From: a virus
Direction: 5' to 3' (one strand)
DNA: 51,106 nt
IMG/VR virus record: IMGVR_UViG_3300027878_000179
Span: 1 to 51,106 of that record
Positions 2,151 through 30,491 of this stretch are shown one piece after another (position 1 is the first letter of the stretch; each line of letters starts with the position of its first letter). Both the position numbers and the translations under genes were made by a program. The notes beneath the pieces were generated by a model. It had not been told where the DNA came from, did no database searches, and saw only the letters and a list, made by a program, of their open reading frames with translations.

Positions 2151-2875
2151 CGAACAGCTCCCAGGTAGGTCTCGTGCCCGCGCAGCGCCGCAAGCGCATC
2201 CTCGTGGTCGGGCCAGCGCGCCGTGACCTCGGCGACGGGAGCCCTGCACAGGCTTCTCATCTCCCCCTCCCGCTCAGAGCAGCCGTACTTCCCGTGCGCG
2301 TTACCGCAGGGTCCGCAGAGCGCGCCGCGAACGATCTCCTGAACGGTCCACTCCGCGCCGCACCCGCGCCCGGCGGCGTCGTCGACGCACCGGTGCGTCG
2401 TGTGCGGCCGCGTCGCCCAGATCCCCTCGTCGACGTGCGCCTTCCAGCAGCTCGTGCAGGCGAGCGCCGCCGGCCGTGGTGCGCCGTAGGTCGAGATGTC
2501 GAGGCAGACGTCGCAGCGTCGCCGCGGCGTCATCCACATGCCGTCCTGGTCCAGCTCGGCCCGCACGGTGTGCGTGCAGTCGAGAACGCAGAAGATGTCG
2601 CCCCCGATGATCACCTCGCCGATGATGCGCCGGCTCGGGGCGATGGCGATCTTCGGGGCGCGCATGGTGACGATGGGCGGAGGGAGCGGCTCGGGAGGAA
2701 GCCCGGCGGCGCGGCGCCGGCGGATCTCGTCGACCGCCTGGCGCGCGGGGCTCCGCCCGGAAAAGGTGCCCACCCTCCCGCCGGCCTGAAGATCGATACC
2801 TTGCCGGCGCTCGCCGGCCGCCTTGCTGATCCTCGCGTCCTTCTCGGCGCGCCGCGCCCGCACCCCGTTCCTCAC
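2147..2875 (-). CDS. Cys-rich hypothetical protein, probable zinc binder (242 aa)
   Basis: The start is GTG at 2875, whose GTGA overlaps the stop of the 55-aa gene upstream. The first 70 residues are basic and Pro-rich (EKDARISKAAGERRQG, GLPPEPLPPPIV). From about residue 90 there are many paired cysteines: FCVLDCTHTVRAE, RRRCDVCLDI, ACTSCWKAHVDEG, HRCVDDAAGRGCGAEW and LCGPCGNAHGKYGC. This pattern suggests two or more zinc ribbons or knuckles. There is no catalytic motif I can name. A nucleic-acid-binding or host-takeover role is possible but unproven. Confidence 0.7.
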   Translation of the reverse strand: MRNGVRARRAEKDARISKAAGERRQGIDLQAGGRVGTFSGRSPARQAVDEIRRRRAAGLPPEPLPPPIVTMRAPKIAIAPSRRIIGEVIIGGDIFCVLDCTHTVRAELDQDGMWMTPRRRCDVCLDISTYGAPRPAALACTSCWKAHVDEGIWATRPHTTHRCVDDAAGRGCGAEWTVQEIVRGALCGPCGNAHGKYGCSEREGEMRSLCRAPVAEVTARWPDHEDALAALRGHETYLGAVR

Positions 2876-3039
2876 GAAGCTCGAAGCGCGGCCAGCTCGG
2901 CGCGCTTCGCCGAGCGGGCGCCGAGGTCACGCACGAGCCGGGCGATCAGCTCTACCCGCTTCAGGTGGGCGAAGCCGATGATCCCGAGCTGCTCTTCGCG
3001 CGCGAGCGTGCGCAGGTCGACGACCTTCTTGCTCTCCAT
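2872..3039 (-). CDS. SAP/Rho_N-like small protein (55 aa)
   Basis: An ATG at 3039 opens a 55-codon frame closed by TGA at 2872-2874, which overlaps the next gene's GTG as GTGA. The peptide starts MESKKVVDLRTLAREEQLGI and continues IGFAHLKRVELIARLV, then a basic/Ala helix. The pattern 'dL+..A+e..l.G...lKr.eLI..l' is that of the SAP or Rho N-terminal helix-extension-helix fold, which binds nucleic acid. It sits directly downstream of the tRNA, so tRNA and mRNA probably share a primary transcript. Confidence 0.6.
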   Translation of the reverse strand: MESKKVVDLRTLAREEQLGIIGFAHLKRVELIARLVRDLGARSAKRAELAALRAS

Positions 3040-3079: not shown

Positions 3080-3156
3080 TGGTGCGCCCGACGGGACTCG
3101 AACCCGTGCCGTCCCGATTTGAAGTCGGGAGCTTCCACCAACTGAGCTACAGGCGC
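3080..3156 (-). tRNA. tRNA with anticodon UCA (UGA-decoding, class I)
   Basis: On the minus strand a full cloverleaf can be drawn: acceptor GCGCCTG/CGGGCGC (one G-U), D arm GCTC...AAGC (C13-A22 mismatch), anticodon stem CCCGA/TCGGG, seven-base loop CTTCAAA, variable loop ACGGC, T arm ACGGG-TTCGAGT-CCCGT, discriminator A and an encoded CCA, 77 nt in all. U33 is present, and bases 34-36 are TCA (plus-strand 3120-3122), so the tRNA should read UGA. The loop CUUCAAA is the same as in E. coli tRNA-Sec. However, the short variable loop and 7-bp acceptor are not those of bacterial tRNA-Sec, so an opal suppressor-type tRNA is more likely. The charged amino acid cannot be read from the sequence. Confidence 0.9.
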
Positions 3157-3488
3157 AGAGCGGGGTCCAGGCGACCGCAGAGCCGATGCCCGCGGACGCC
3201 TGGCTCGAAGGCCGCCGCCGTGAGGGCGCCTTCGAGATCAGGTTCACAGAAAAACGAGACGCAGACTTCGTCGAACACGGCCCTGTCGATCAGATCCTGA
3301 AGCGCGGCCTCATCGGGCACGACGACGAACGCGATCGTGTTCGATGAGGCATACCAGGCCTGCTCTACCTCGGCGTGCTCGGCGGCGAAACGCCGAGCAG
3401 CGTGCATGCCCTGAACAGCTTGCGGCCCGGGCGGCAGGCCCGGGCGGGTGACGATGTAGAGCTTCTCGGGCACGCTGTCCCTATCCAT
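3147..3488 (-). CDS. PTH2-family peptidyl-tRNA hydrolase-like protein (113 aa)
   Basis: The start is ATG 3488. The N-terminal EKLYIVTRPGLPPGPQAVQG followed by MHAARRF matches the first strand and helix of the PTH2 fold. DEAALQDLIDRA and VCVSFFCEPDLEGALTAAAF match its middle and C-terminal core (the short phage-type version usually has EPDL...TA). PTH2 enzymes release tRNA from peptidyl-tRNA. The last codons run into the tRNA gene: the TAG stop is formed by tRNA bases 8-10 (3147-3149), a 10-nt overlap. A tRNA-recycling enzyme directly coupled to a phage tRNA is a sensible functional pair. The catalytic residues cannot be assigned with certainty in this divergent sequence. Confidence 0.7.
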   Translation of the reverse strand: MDRDSVPEKLYIVTRPGLPPGPQAVQGMHAARRFAAEHAEVEQAWYASSNTIAFVVVPDEAALQDLIDRAVFDEVCVSFFCEPDLEGALTAAAFEPGVRGHRLCGRLDPALRL

Positions 3489-5178: not shown

Positions 5179-5922
5179 TCAGGGGACGATGAGGCAGATT
5201 GCGTGGGCGGTGATCATGCTGGGGCCGATCCCGGTGTTCGTCGCGGTGCAGTGCCAAACCATCGGCGCTGCAAGAATGCCAAAGTTCTCGGCACGTTGCG
5301 TCGTGAGCTGGGTCTTCGTGTTCGCGACGTCGCAGCTTCCAGAGAGCAGAATATCGTTCGCGTCCAGGCACGACGCGAACGCGTCGTTGGTAGAAGACAC
5401 AGCCACGTTTACCGGGACGTCGACAGGATAGACCTGCGACCTTGAGATGCCGGCGCCGGGGGCTCCAGGCGTTCCCGGCGTTCCCGGCGTTCCCGGCGTT
5501 CCCGGCGCTCCGGTGAGCCCCTGCGGGCCCTGCGGCCCGGCGACGCCCGGCGCTCCCTTCGGCCCAGTCAGGCCGAGGTCGCCCTTCGGGCCGGCGGCAC
5601 CGGCCAGGCCCTGAGCACCCTCGACACCCTGCGGGCCGATGAGCCCCTGCGGGCCGGCCGCGCCGACGGGGCCGATGTCGCCCTTCGGACCCTCGGAACC
5701 CTGCGGCCCAGCTTGACCCGCGACGCCTTGCGGCCCGGCGGGGCCCTGGTCGCCCTTCGGCCCAGCAACGCCGGCGGGGCCCTGCGCGCCGGCGGCGCCG
5801 ATGGCCGAACCCGCATCCTGCGTCGGCGGGTTCGGGTCGACCCCGGCGTCCGTCTCGCCCCCGCAGGCCGAAACGAACATCGCCACCATCGCCACCCCAG
5901 CCAGGTTCCACATCGTCTTCAT
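5179..5922 (-). CDS. collagen-like repeat lipoprotein (247 aa)
   Basis: The start is ATG 5922. Residues 1-20 form a signal peptide with a lipobox ending MFVSAC, so the mature protein should be a lipid-anchored envelope protein. After a short linker (DAGVDPNPPTQDAG), residues about 45-155 are Gly-X-Y repeats (GPAGPQGVAGQ, GPKGDIGPVG, (GTP)4-GAPGAG), the sequence form of a collagen triple helix. A C-terminal domain of about 90 residues follows (VYPVDVPVNVAVSSTNDAFA), with three Cys after it and a hydrophobic end (AHAICLIVP). Collagen-like stalks are known in phage fibres, but the lipobox argues for display on the host cell. The (GTP)4 part is encoded by an exact 9-bp repeat (5470-5505) that could change length in frame. 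Confidence 0.8.
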   Translation of the reverse strand: MKTMWNLAGVAMVAMFVSACGGETDAGVDPNPPTQDAGSAIGAAGAQGPAGVAGPKGDQGPAGPQGVAGQAGPQGSEGPKGDIGPVGAAGPQGLIGPQGVEGAQGLAGAAGPKGDLGLTGPKGAPGVAGPQGPQGLTGAPGTPGTPGTPGTPGAPGAGISRSQVYPVDVPVNVAVSSTNDAFASCLDANDILLSGSCDVANTKTQLTTQRAENFGILAAPMVWHCTATNTGIGPSMITAHAICLIVP

Positions 5923-8738: not shown

Positions 8739-8987
8739 ATGGCCCGCGGCTACGTGATGATCTACGAAATGAAGCTGGTCGATGCGGTGGTCGCTGGCCA
8801 CCACGTCAAGGTCGAGAGGCCCTCGAAGATCGCGCAGATTCCGATCGAGTTCGGCTCGGTCGACGAGGGGCGTGAGCGCGCCCGCGAGGTCGCGAAGCAG
8901 CGCACGGGGCGCGCGCCGCGGTCTCTCTCCTGCCTGGCCAACGACAACTTCTCGGTGACCGTCCCCCTGTTGCTGAGCGGAGACTGA
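8739..8987 (+). CDS. small hypothetical protein (82 aa)
   Basis: ATG 8739 opens a frame whose product has strand-like segments (YVMIYEMKLVDAVVAGHHVK, AQIPIEF) and a basic helix (RERAREVAKQRTGRAP). It is the first gene of the long plus-strand structural block and ends 3 nt before the next start. No family is recognised. The C-terminal NDNFSVTVPLLLSG suggests a small beta domain. It may be a minor head-region protein, by position only. Confidence 0.6.
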   Translation: MARGYVMIYEMKLVDAVVAGHHVKVERPSKIAQIPIEFGSVDEGRERAREVAKQRTGRAPRSLSCLANDNFSVTVPLLLSGD

Positions 8988-8990
8988 GTC

Positions 8991-9332
8991 ATGCGCGGGT
9001 CATTTTCCCAGTTCGTTCTCAAGACCAACCCCACCACCCAGGCTCAGATGGTCGGCCAGGGGGATGCGAAACCGACCGGTGATCTCGACCAAAAGAGGGT
9101 GCAGATCGTGTGCTCTGGCGCCTCACCTGGCCCGGCGTGGAACGGCACGATGGTGCTGGAGGGAACCATCGACGGGACGACATGGGAGACGGTGACTGGC
9201 GGCGGAGCAATCACCACCACCTCGGTCATCAATGTGCCGCTCTGGTACGCGAAGATGCGCGTCAACATCACCGTGTACACCGCCGGCTCAGCCGCTGGCG
9301 GCGTCGGCGGGATCGACCTCCTCGCGAACTGA
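8991..9332 (+). CDS. hypothetical beta-rich virion-type protein (113 aa)
   Basis: The start is ATG 8991. The sequence is typical of small phage structural proteins: GDAKPTGDLDQKRVQIVCSG, WNGTMVLEGTIDGTTWETVT, and many Thr/Val strands, ending GGVGGIDLLAN. The pattern 'nGtmvLEGTiDGttWetv' recurs in short phage proteins encoded near portals and neck genes. It has no enzymatic motif. Only 3 nt separate its stop from the portal gene, so it is likely co-expressed with it. Confidence 0.6.
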   Translation: MRGSFSQFVLKTNPTTQAQMVGQGDAKPTGDLDQKRVQIVCSGASPGPAWNGTMVLEGTIDGTTWETVTGGGAITTTSVINVPLWYAKMRVNITVYTAGSAAGGVGGIDLLAN

Positions 9333-9335
9333 CCC

Positions 9336-15610: not shown

Positions 15611-17146
15611 GTGAACGACATCACGCGGATCGGCAAAGCAGCGAGAGCGGCAGCGAGATTGACGAACCTGCGCACGCAGGAAGTCAGCCTCGTCGACCAC
15701 GCGGCCAACATGCGCCGGTGGGTTATCCAGAAGAACGGACCCGCCCCCGTCGCGAAGATCGACTTCGCCGACTGTATCGAAGAAGGCAACGACCCCGACG
15801 ACTGCGAAGCTGTCGCCGATTCCGCAGGAGAGATCATGCCGCACGTGAAGAAGGAAGCTGGGGATCCGCAGTCGTACGGTGTCCTCGCGGATGCCAGTGG
15901 CGCTGTCCCCCCCGCTCCTCCCGCGCAAGAGGGAGAGATTCAAGATCTCGGCGCTTCCGCGGACACCAGCGGTGCCGTGGCTCAGCCCGCGCAGGCCGAT
16001 GGGCAGGAGCTGCCGCAGCTCAAGGCCGAAGGCGACCCGCCTCCCGCCGATGGTGCGCCGAACGCCAACGCTCCGGCGGCGGCGGCGGAGGGCGAAGACA
16101 CTCTTCAGCTCCCCAAGATCACGATGCCTGCCGAGATGCAGGACGGGATTCTGAACGGCCTCGCTCTGCTGCTCGAAGCGCAGACCGCGATGGCCGAGAT
16201 GGTCCAGTCGGCGACGATCGACGACGCGGCCCCGATGCCCCCCGAGCTGAGCCAGGCCTTCCTCGACGTCGACAACGTCATGGATGGGATGATGACGCAG
16301 TACGGGATGAAGGATCCCGAGGATCCCACTCAGCAGGCCGCGGCCCCTCCCTTCAAGTCGCCCGAAGACGAAGCGAAGGATAAGGCCGAGTCCGAGAAGA
16401 CCGAGAAGGGCGCGACGATCGATGCCCCCTCGTCGGCCGAGCAGCCGGCTCCCACCGATCCCAAGACGGACGATGTCACGGCCGTCTTGATGGGTCTGGC
16501 CAAGGCCTGCGCCAGCACCACCGACGCCATGGCCTCGACGGTCAAGATGCTCGCCAAGGGCATGACCTCTGGCGACGGCGCCGTCGCCAAGGCCGGTCGG
16601 AAGATGGCCAGTGGGCGTCTCTCGATGCTTCAGCAGGCCTACAAAATCTTGTCCGGCCTGCTCCAGGAGCTGGTCGCGGAGAACGGCGGCGACGAGGAAG
16701 CTCCCGTCGCGCCCGCGCCCGCCGGAATGCCCGCGCCCGGCGGCAAGGCTGCTCCCGCGGCCATCCCTCCGGCGCCCGCCGGCGCACCGGTCGCGCCCCC
16801 GAAGGCGCCTGTCGCCGCGGCCCCCGCCGCGCCGCCCGCGCCCGCGGCGCCCCCGAAGCGGCCCGCGCCCCCCGCGGTGCCCGCGGCGAAGGCCAGCTCT
16901 GTCGCGAAGTCCATGGAGTCGCTGCGCAACTTCGTGAAGCCCGTCGCCAAGACCGCGCGCGAGGTGGAGCTGGAGGCGAAGGTCAACAACCTGTCGTCGC
17001 AGCTCAAGTCGGTCGCCAAGGAGCGCGGTGGGCAGCCGCGCGCCGGGTCGGTCGACGACATCCCGACGCCTCCCGTCCCGGTGAAGAAGTCGGTCCTGTG
17101 GCCCGACGACTTGAGCAAGTCCGCCGCGGAACGCACCGCGAAGTAA
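15611..17146 (+). CDS. scaffold-like / XkdF-N-like head assembly protein (511 aa)
   Basis: The start is GTG 15611, probably leaderless. The N-terminus LRTQEVSLVDHAANMRRWVI followed by QKNG is the short motif seen at the start of many phage protease or scaffold proteins. The rest is acidic and low complexity (DDCEAVADSAGE, AEGDPPPADGAPNANAPA), with helical parts (MQDGILNGLALLLEAQTAMA, LMGLAKACASTTDAMA) and a long Pro/Ala linker (APAGMPAPGGKAAP). A coiled-coil-like C-terminus follows (REVELEAKVNNLSSQLKSVA). It lies between the protease and the major capsid protein, where scaffolds are encoded. A scaffold role is inferred from composition and position. Confidence 0.65.
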   Translation: MNDITRIGKAARAAARLTNLRTQEVSLVDHAANMRRWVIQKNGPAPVAKIDFADCIEEGNDPDDCEAVADSAGEIMPHVKKEAGDPQSYGVLADASGAVPPAPPAQEGEIQDLGASADTSGAVAQPAQADGQELPQLKAEGDPPPADGAPNANAPAAAAEGEDTLQLPKITMPAEMQDGILNGLALLLEAQTAMAEMVQSATIDDAAPMPPELSQAFLDVDNVMDGMMTQYGMKDPEDPTQQAAAPPFKSPEDEAKDKAESEKTEKGATIDAPSSAEQPAPTDPKTDDVTAVLMGLAKACASTTDAMASTVKMLAKGMTSGDGAVAKAGRKMASGRLSMLQQAYKILSGLLQELVAENGGDEEAPVAPAPAGMPAPGGKAAPAAIPPAPAGAPVAPPKAPVAAAPAAPPAPAAPPKRPAPPAVPAAKASSVAKSMESLRNFVKPVAKTAREVELEAKVNNLSSQLKSVAKERGGQPRAGSVDDIPTPPVPVKKSVLWPDDLSKSAAERTAK

Positions 17147-29442: not shown

Positions 29443-30333
29443 ATGCAAGATACAGCGCCGAGCGGCCTGACCGCCAACGTCAGAAAAATCAAGGGCCACG
29501 TACTCGCCTCCCTCGCCGCCGAGGCCGACGCCGACACGTCGGCCGATGGCGGCATTTCCACCATCGTCGGTGGGTGCTGGGAGAGTACGGTCGAGGCCGG
29601 CCCCTACGCGTTCGTCACGCCCGGCGAGGGGATTCCGGACTGGAGCCGCGTTCTCAAGGGCGACCTGATGTTCTGGCTGCTGCGCCTGCGCGCGCTCAGC
29701 GTGCGCACGCCCGACAGCAATCCGGGGCCGTGGGGGCAGGGCGACGCCTACTGCTTCCCGGTCAAGTGCCAGAACTGCCCGAAGCAGTACGACTGGGAGG
29801 TCAACCTCTCCTCCCTGCCGATCAAGCACCTCCCCGAGGAGTCCGCGCAGCGGATCCGCTCGGGCGACGGCCGCTTCAAGGTGACGGTCGGCGGCCGCGC
29901 CTACGTCTACGAGCTGCAAATGCCGAAGCACGACGAGCCGATGCGGCGCGCGCGCAAGCAGCAGAAGCGGGTCGCGTCGACGATCATCGACGTGCTCACC
30001 TCGCAGACGGTCTCGATCGAAGGCGTGAAGCCCTCGATCATCGACCGGTACAACCACATGGCCGACCTGGAGTTCGAGGACATCCAGGCTCTGCAAGAGG
30101 CCTACGAGGCCTCCGACTGCGGCGTCGAGACCTCGCTCGATACGAAGTGCCCGGGCTGCCGGTGGGTGCAGGAGGTCGAGCTTCCTCTGGGAAAAGGTTT
30201 CTTTGCTCCTCGTCGCCGGTCGAAGGAACCGATCGAGGAGACGGATTCCCCCTCACCGAGCACGGTTACTTCCTTCGTCACCTCTTCTGGGGAGTCGGCA
30301 CCGAGTGGTGGCACAAGCTCGTCCGCCACCTGA
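29443..30333 (+). CDS. tail assembly chaperone, 0-frame product (296 aa)
   Basis: The start is ATG 29443, with AAAGGGAGA upstream. It lies between the tube and the tape measure, the site of the gpG/gpGT-type chaperone pair. The protein is larger than usual. It has an N-terminal low-complexity part, a possible metal site (VKCQNCPKQYDWEVNLSSLP ... TKCPGCRWVQEVELPLG) and a helical middle (FEDIQALQEAYEAS). After the slippery heptamer (30189-30195) the 0 frame becomes Ser/Thr/Pro-rich and stops at 30333. The chaperone function of binding the tape measure is inferred from gene order and the frameshift signal. Confidence 0.75.
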   Translation: MQDTAPSGLTANVRKIKGHVLASLAAEADADTSADGGISTIVGGCWESTVEAGPYAFVTPGEGIPDWSRVLKGDLMFWLLRLRALSVRTPDSNPGPWGQGDAYCFPVKCQNCPKQYDWEVNLSSLPIKHLPEESAQRIRSGDGRFKVTVGGRAYVYELQMPKHDEPMRRARKQQKRVASTIIDVLTSQTVSIEGVKPSIIDRYNHMADLEFEDIQALQEAYEASDCGVETSLDTKCPGCRWVQEVELPLGKGFFAPRRRSKEPIEETDSPSPSTVTSFVTSSGESAPSGGTSSSAT

Positions 30334-30491
30334 CCTACAAGCAGCACGGCGGCAGCGGCCTGAACTGGTCCCGCGCCGACGTGCTGGACGCCGACGCTGA
30401 CGAACTGATCTGGCATGCCCTCGACCTCGACGCGCAGCGCGCACGCGAGGCCGCTGAGGTCGAGAAAAGGCAGAAGACGCCGAGCCGATGA
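29443..30491 (+). CDS. tail assembly chaperone, -1 frameshift product (about 349 aa)
   Basis: A -1 shift on GGGAAAA (codons GGA AAA) joins residue 251 of the 0 frame to a 98-residue extension read from 30195 to 30491. The extension looks properly folded and charged, unlike the 0-frame tail: PLTEHGYFLRHLFWGVGTEW, WHKLVRHLTYKQHGGSGLNW, DELIWHALDLDAQRAREAAE. In lambda and many other phages the longer product (GT) binds the tape measure while the shorter one coats it. The extension ends at TGA 30489-30491, overlapping the next ATG. Confidence 0.75.
30189..30195 (+). other. -1 ribosomal frameshift site GGGAAAA
   Basis: The heptamer reads G GGA AAA in the 0 frame, an exact X XXY YYZ signal. Lambda uses the closely related GGGAAAG. 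The upstream frame is the chaperone, and the -1 frame stays open for 98 more codons. Confidence 0.8.

Follow-up and report, generated by a model that had tools for sequence, protein, structure and literature searches.

Locus and genome context

The window, by which we mean the whole stretch of DNA analyzed here, is a complete IMG/VR record of 51,106 bp, a linear fragment with 67% GC. A myovirus gene set (portal, head protease, major capsid protein, sheath, tape measure and baseplate) is encoded on the plus strand, and the left end of the window is occupied by small genes, mostly in a minus-strand run. The features at the locus under study are as follows.

3147..3488, minus strand: PTH2-type peptidyl-tRNA hydrolase-like gene that runs from an ATG to a TAG, codes for 113 aa and immediately precedes the tRNA in the same orientation (PHROG 1866, E 1.6e-12)
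3147..3156, minus strand: overlap of the two genes, the stop TAG of pth2 being tRNA nt 8-10 (from sequence geometry)
3080..3156, minus strand: class I tRNA gene with anticodon UCA (ARAGORN; Rfam RF00005, 63.9 bits), encoded CCA, A73 and G1-C72
3120..3122, minus strand: anticodon UCA, tRNA nt 35-37, in the loop CUUCAAA (ARAGORN)
2872..3039, minus strand: 55-aa gene with weak Rho_N-like similarity (Pfam, below cut-off), the first gene downstream of the tRNA and the first of a series of minus-strand genes that extends to 237

The near-identical contig G001 begins at window position 16339, outside the tRNA region. Among the other close relatives, G002 is a fragment without a tRNA, G353 has Cys, Asn and Thr tRNAs, and G357 and others have none. 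A search with a tightened tRNA pattern in about 85,000 bacterial genomes returned only three matching places, none of them an obvious source. Lipoprotein-like genes occur inside the window, and the overlapping contig G001 encodes, just past the right end of the window, a copper-monooxygenase-like lipoprotein whose matches fall below the Pfam cut-offs; together, these genes tentatively suggest a myxobacterial host. The protein encoded at 5179-5922 contains a collagen-type Gly-X-Y repeat, looks secreted or lipoprotein-like and may be a tail fibre or surface protein.

Structure and identity of the tRNA

ARAGORN and Rfam agreed on 3080-3156 of the minus strand as the single tRNA of the whole window. 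The acceptor stem has 7 bp, the anticodon stem 5 bp (6 counting U26-A44) and the T stem 5 bp, while the 7-nt anticodon loop carries U33 and A37, giving the canonical cloverleaf of an opal suppressor-type tRNA with a variable loop of 4-5 nt. Its blemishes are minor: position 21 is a G, and the D stem, in which C13 and A22 are unpaired, has 3 bp. The original prediction had described a well-formed cloverleaf with U33, A37, an encoded CCA and anticodon UCA on an ordinary class I body with a short variable loop, and both programs bore this out; ARAGORN kept the UCA anticodon, and no alternative anticodon register of this tRNA yielded a paired stem. When 183 phage tRNAs were scored in a single search, the RF00005 value of this one was in about the highest fifth, so the gene is not a degenerate remnant. 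Judged from its fold and anticodon, it should be an intact UGA-decoding (opal suppressor-type) tRNA.

The same anticodon loop could be read as that of a selenocysteine tRNA, or of the Trp(UCA) tRNA of a recoded genome. The loop CUUCAAA is, we presume, identical to that of Escherichia coli selC, and ARAGORN prints 'SeC' for UCA here, as it does for other class I tRNAs. This reading is nonetheless scarcely credible. Bacterial tRNA-Sec was rejected on three characters, the variable loop being 4-5 nt and not a long arm, the acceptor stem 7 bp and not 8 bp, and the discriminator A73 and not G73; furthermore, the Rfam tRNA-Sec model (RF01852) gave no match to 3080-3156, which only RF00005 matched. 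The identity elements for tryptophan are G73 and/or A1-U72. The window tRNA has A73 and G1-C72, unlike the Trp-type UCA tRNAs of TGA-recoded phages, and the phage genes contain no in-frame TGA.

The discriminator base was compared across 18 viral contigs that have a class I CUUCAAA tRNA and enough genes. The Trp type (G73 or A1-U72) was present in 1/7 contigs that use TGA as a stop, most of which have A73 and no A1-U72, versus 9/11 contigs in which TGA is a sense codon or almost absent (Fisher p 0.013), a contrast noticed post hoc, on contigs that are not fully independent and with two thresholds chosen by us. The UCA tRNAs of TGA-stop phages seem to be of an A73 type, and those of recoded or TGA-poor phages of a Trp-like type.

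Use of TGA in the phage genome

The 44 confident genes of the window end in TGA 29 times, in TAA 8 times and in TAG 7 times, and several of the TGA codons lie in ATGA overlaps, in agreement with the earlier statement that most genes stop at TGA, often in such overlaps, and that the genome is not wholly recoded. Gene models scored 81 per kb with TGA as a stop versus 34 with TGA as sense, and a search of the phage genes for in-frame TGA was negative. The TGA share is 66% in this phage, compared with 63% and 58% in relatives where no UCA tRNA was detected, and the distance to the next in-frame stop is equal after TGA and after the other stops (p 0.83). The gene-model scores, the TGA share and the stop distances rule out TGA recoding in the window. 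No clear skew was seen in the +4 base after TGA, neither backup stops nor TGA avoidance was found in the window, and the release factor search that had been proposed detected no PF00472 domain there. Since UGA is not avoided in the phage, strong suppression is disfavoured. A role as an attachment site, with the tRNA retained for integration, was also rejected, as there is no integrase among the annotated window genes and a long arm would be expected in a host selC.

The original prediction had suggested that the tRNA drives conditional readthrough of the phage's own late genes, an explanation that we now consider very unlikely. The UCA anticodon itself and the arrangement of the portal gene and its two upstream genes, which share one frame with TGA between them (8985-9335), speak for it. 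However, no TGA precedes a coding extension except for separate downstream genes with their own ATG, and such in-frame neighbours are at least equally common after the other stops (3/29 after TGA vs 4/15 after TAA/TAG). The equal stop distances given above also count against it, and the stops of four genes coincide in position with stops in a relative. Among the structural genes, a coding tail follows the TGA only in the tail-assembly chaperone gene at 29443-30333, just upstream of the tape measure gene; the tail is in the -1 frame and ends at 30491, and a TTCCCCCT run near 30245-30252 precedes this second part. The pair at 29443-30491 is therefore a probable programmed -1 frameshift of the ordinary kind rather than a readthrough product. 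Candidates for readthrough shared with relatives were discarded, since most of the spanning matches looked like mirror-frame artefacts of GC-rich DNA and the single one of them that seemed genuine, at 30331, turned out to be the -1 frameshifting.

The PTH2-like gene overlapping the tRNA

The open reading frame at 3147-3488 was missed by the gene caller and is absent from the original prediction. Its protein has 44% identity to gp79 of ScoobyDoobyDoo, annotated as 'peptidyl tRNA hydrolase' (E 4e-12), and matches Pfam PTH2 (PF01981) with E 0.0065 and 17.1 bits, below the curated cut-off of 23. Five relatives with 39-45% identity to the window protein score 26.7-39.1 bits and are above that cut-off, and the Q, H, D and T columns are conserved across seven PTH2 relatives including the window protein. 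PTH2 enzymes usually carry a lysine in a G-K motif, a position that is P or L here. Because of the score below the Pfam cut-off and the replacement of this lysine, catalysis by the window PTH2 is uncertain.

As the TAG of pth2 lies inside the tRNA, 5' tRNA processing would strip the stop codon from the pth2 message. An RNase P cut would truncate the message before its stop, and any one transcript may be used for either the tRNA or the PTH2 protein.

Stop-anticodon tRNAs beside PTH2 genes in other phages

In 6/6 close PTH2 relatives examined, the next ARAGORN tRNA downstream was a stop-anticodon tRNA on the same strand, at about 35-250 nt.

Cane17 and Alice, same strand: CUA tRNA about 250 nt past pth
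ScoobyDoobyDoo, same strand: CUA tRNA about 180 nt past pth
Myrna and Phabba, same strand: CUA tRNA about 130 nt past pth, with quite different tRNA bodies
LR745208 (485-kb uncultured phage), same strand: UUA tRNA about 35 nt past the pth stop

The depositors of Alice label its CUA tRNA as a suppressor (cta). For Myrna, Phabba and LR745208, the tRNA next to pth reaches only about 30 bits, and the depositors of Myrna and Phabba name the tRNAs Ser and Arg and place a further tRNA, omitted by ARAGORN, between pth and CUA; the shared loop TTCTAAA supports the CUA reading in these two phages. In the CUA tRNAs of two cluster C1 mycobacteriophages (L278 and L287), a 31-39 mismatch leaves a 4-bp anticodon stem, a feature that has been linked to stop reading (PMC13092985).

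In Cane17, pth and the CUA tRNA are located at 93.7-94.4 kb, and the Ser-Leu-Leu-Leu tRNA block at 27.6 kb lacks the pair; in ScoobyDoobyDoo, the pair is located at 29.4-30.0 kb and follows the Ser-Leu-Leu-Leu tRNA block. Since the pair occupies different sites in the two phages and is absent beside the block of Cane17, pth and the CUA tRNA seem to have moved together. With TAG ending 20/80 genes in Cane17 and TAA ending 10/49 genes in LR745208, both phages retain the codon read by the tRNA as a stop. The codon read by the partner tRNA is the stop codon of 0/7 pth genes, which is weak evidence.

The association has boundaries. The 642-kb phage LR756502 carries a weaker seventh homologue that has no tRNA close to it, and more distant PHROG 1866 members in contigs G361 and G368 are not immediate neighbours of stop tRNAs. 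A PTH2 gene immediately upstream of a stop-anticodon tRNA on the same strand was found in the window and six relatives, a pairing spotted post hoc in a few lineages, namely cluster C (two genera), LR745208 and the window phage. A search of the freely accessible literature found no paper remarking on it. Stop-anticodon tRNAs adjoin this PTH2 clade in three phage lineages, one each with UCA, CUA and UUA, and the codon is still a stop in each lineage tested.

Stop-decoding tRNAs in non-recoded phages

The original prediction regarded a UCA tRNA as surprising in a phage with normal TGA use. The tRNA and the TGA use are both real, but the combination is not unique. At least about 27 UCA tRNAs were found by ARAGORN among 120 IMG/VR stretches, and several TGA-stop contigs of 41-57% GC (G366/L007, G361/L129, G364/L073 and G365/L082) carry UCA tRNAs that pass the Rfam threshold. 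The tRNA of G366 has 72.8 bits, the top score among the tRNAs of that contig; G361 has two, of 64.2 and 62.5 bits; the tRNA of G364 (L073, 4365-4436, 61.2 bits) is the only one found by Rfam in a 48-kb contig of 41% GC with TGA stops in 8/33 genes; and that of G365 has 49.1 bits. A UCA candidate at L116 was discarded as a false tRNA. Among published phages, the cultured Agrobacterium phage Atu_ph07 has a UCA tRNA together with 267 UGA stops (PMC6102473), and the Xanthomonas phage XacN1 has CUA tRNAs without targets (PMC5852040). Among table 4 phages, Sup-TCA is present in 11/73 (PMC11210395).

Several neighbouring observations were made in these data. In the 342-kb contig G361, a phage tmRNA gene lies just upstream of the two UCA tRNAs (L129, 7930-9049), and an RF-1 (release factor) domain protein is encoded in a 188-aa open frame at 286878, so that several stop-codon or stalled-ribosome genes are present in one phage. 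A tmRNA and a UCA tRNA also occur together in phage contig G369 (L067, 341-828 and 6926-7001). Class I UCA tRNAs were seen in tandem with a tRNA-Gly in a Syntrophomonadaceae MAG (L130, 876-1033) and in a ninefold tRNA array in an Acidobacteria MAG (L131, 95-1113), each of which may be a mobile element or phage.

Drift, or the emergence of a suppressor ahead of any recoding, could account for the tRNA differently: a phage tRNA-Lys or tRNA-Arg would have mutated to UCA and would do little, with the adjacency to PTH2 arising by chance. With the anticodon masked, the body is nearest to tRNA-Lys(UUU), sharing 61 identical positions with a Pseudarthrobacter megaplasmid gene, followed by tRNA-Arg(UCU/UCG) and then some tRNA-Met(CAU), and the single change U36A converts UCU to UCA. 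Emergence of a suppressor tRNA by a single anticodon mutation without recoding has been described (Yutin et al., PMC7886860), and suppressor tRNAs that appear to be inactive have been reported and suggested to weaken the host (PMC12386605). However, the window tRNA is well formed with an encoded CCA, the same PTH2 clade occurs repeatedly with stop-anticodon tRNAs of all three anticodons, and in G366 the UCA tRNA outscores the other tRNAs of its contig. We consider drift unlikely. It is decidedly improbable that the tRNA serves mainly as a decoy, or as a nuclease-resistant tRNA, against host anticodon nucleases and decodes only secondarily. The tRNAs of cluster C1 mycobacteriophages have been proposed to evade tRNA-targeting toxins, and the cta anticodon was mentioned with respect to RelE (PMC10264068), but evasion leaves unexplained why only stop anticodons adjoin PTH2.

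Proposed model

The recurrence of the tRNA with PTH2 suggests a small phage module acting at the end of protein synthesis. We propose, at an even chance, that it is a previously unreported module in which a hydrolase of the PTH2 clade and an adjacent stop-decoding tRNA, with any of the three stop anticodons, interfere with or buffer host termination while the standard code is kept. For the window phage, our tentative reading, to which we give slightly less than an even chance, is that the UGA-decoding tRNA works with the upstream PTH2, the tRNA competing with the release factor mainly against host termination and PTH2 recycling peptidyl-tRNA. The linkage comes from computation; charging, suppression and benefit are our inference.

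In this model, the UCA tRNA would be expressed during infection and charged by a host synthetase. C35 is a main arginine identity base and A73 suits arginine; as both are kept, arginine would be the first guess for the amino acid, and lysine would be possible given that the body is nearest to tRNA-Lys. E. coli ArgRS prefers A at position 20, which is U here. The charged tRNA would compete with RF2 at UGA, and some products would be lengthened or stalled, above all those of the host, because host translation is the larger target. A possible action on host UGA codons, the second idea of the original prediction, is the favoured direction. Peptidyl-tRNA might drop off at such events and be hydrolysed by PTH2, which would keep the tRNA pool free. 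As a conjecture, the phage would gain from weaker production of host or defence proteins, or from more tolerance to termination stress.

Stop-decoding tRNAs in non-recoded phages have been noted repeatedly and left unexplained, and a conserved partner gene offers a concrete handle on them. The pair is present in well-studied mycobacteriophages that grow on M. smegmatis, so its role is testable by deletion. If the model is true, stop tRNAs would be tools acting on termination, and not merely steps towards recoding.

Comparison with known systems

The closest counterparts are the cluster C mycobacteriophages (Alice, Cane17, ScoobyDoobyDoo, Myrna and Phabba), which likewise have a PTH2-type gene followed by a stop-anticodon tRNA on the same strand, with TAG kept as a stop in Cane17. 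Their tRNAs, however, read UAG, sit in a tRNA array and are separated from the hydrolase gene by a gap of about 130-250 nt, whereas the two genes of the window overlap and the tRNA would read UGA. The window phage resembles Atu_ph07 in having a UCA tRNA, in using UGA as an abundant stop and in encoding a peptidyl-tRNA hydrolase-like protein, peptidyl-tRNA hydrolases being encoded in the Atu_ph07 genome (PMC6102473); it differs in that Atu_ph07 has many tRNAs, belongs to a different phage group and has no annotated hydrolase neighbour at its UCA-tRNA-like sites. XacN1 also has stop tRNAs without detectable readthrough targets, but no hydrolase is annotated beside its CUA suppressor tRNAs, its hydrolase being elsewhere in the genome. 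With the Sup-TCA tRNAs of table 4 phages the window tRNA shares the UCA anticodon (PMC11210395; PMC7886860; PMC12386605), whereas TGA encodes an amino acid, mostly Trp, in those genomes, and the tRNAs in the recoded contigs examined here mostly have G73 or A1-U72.
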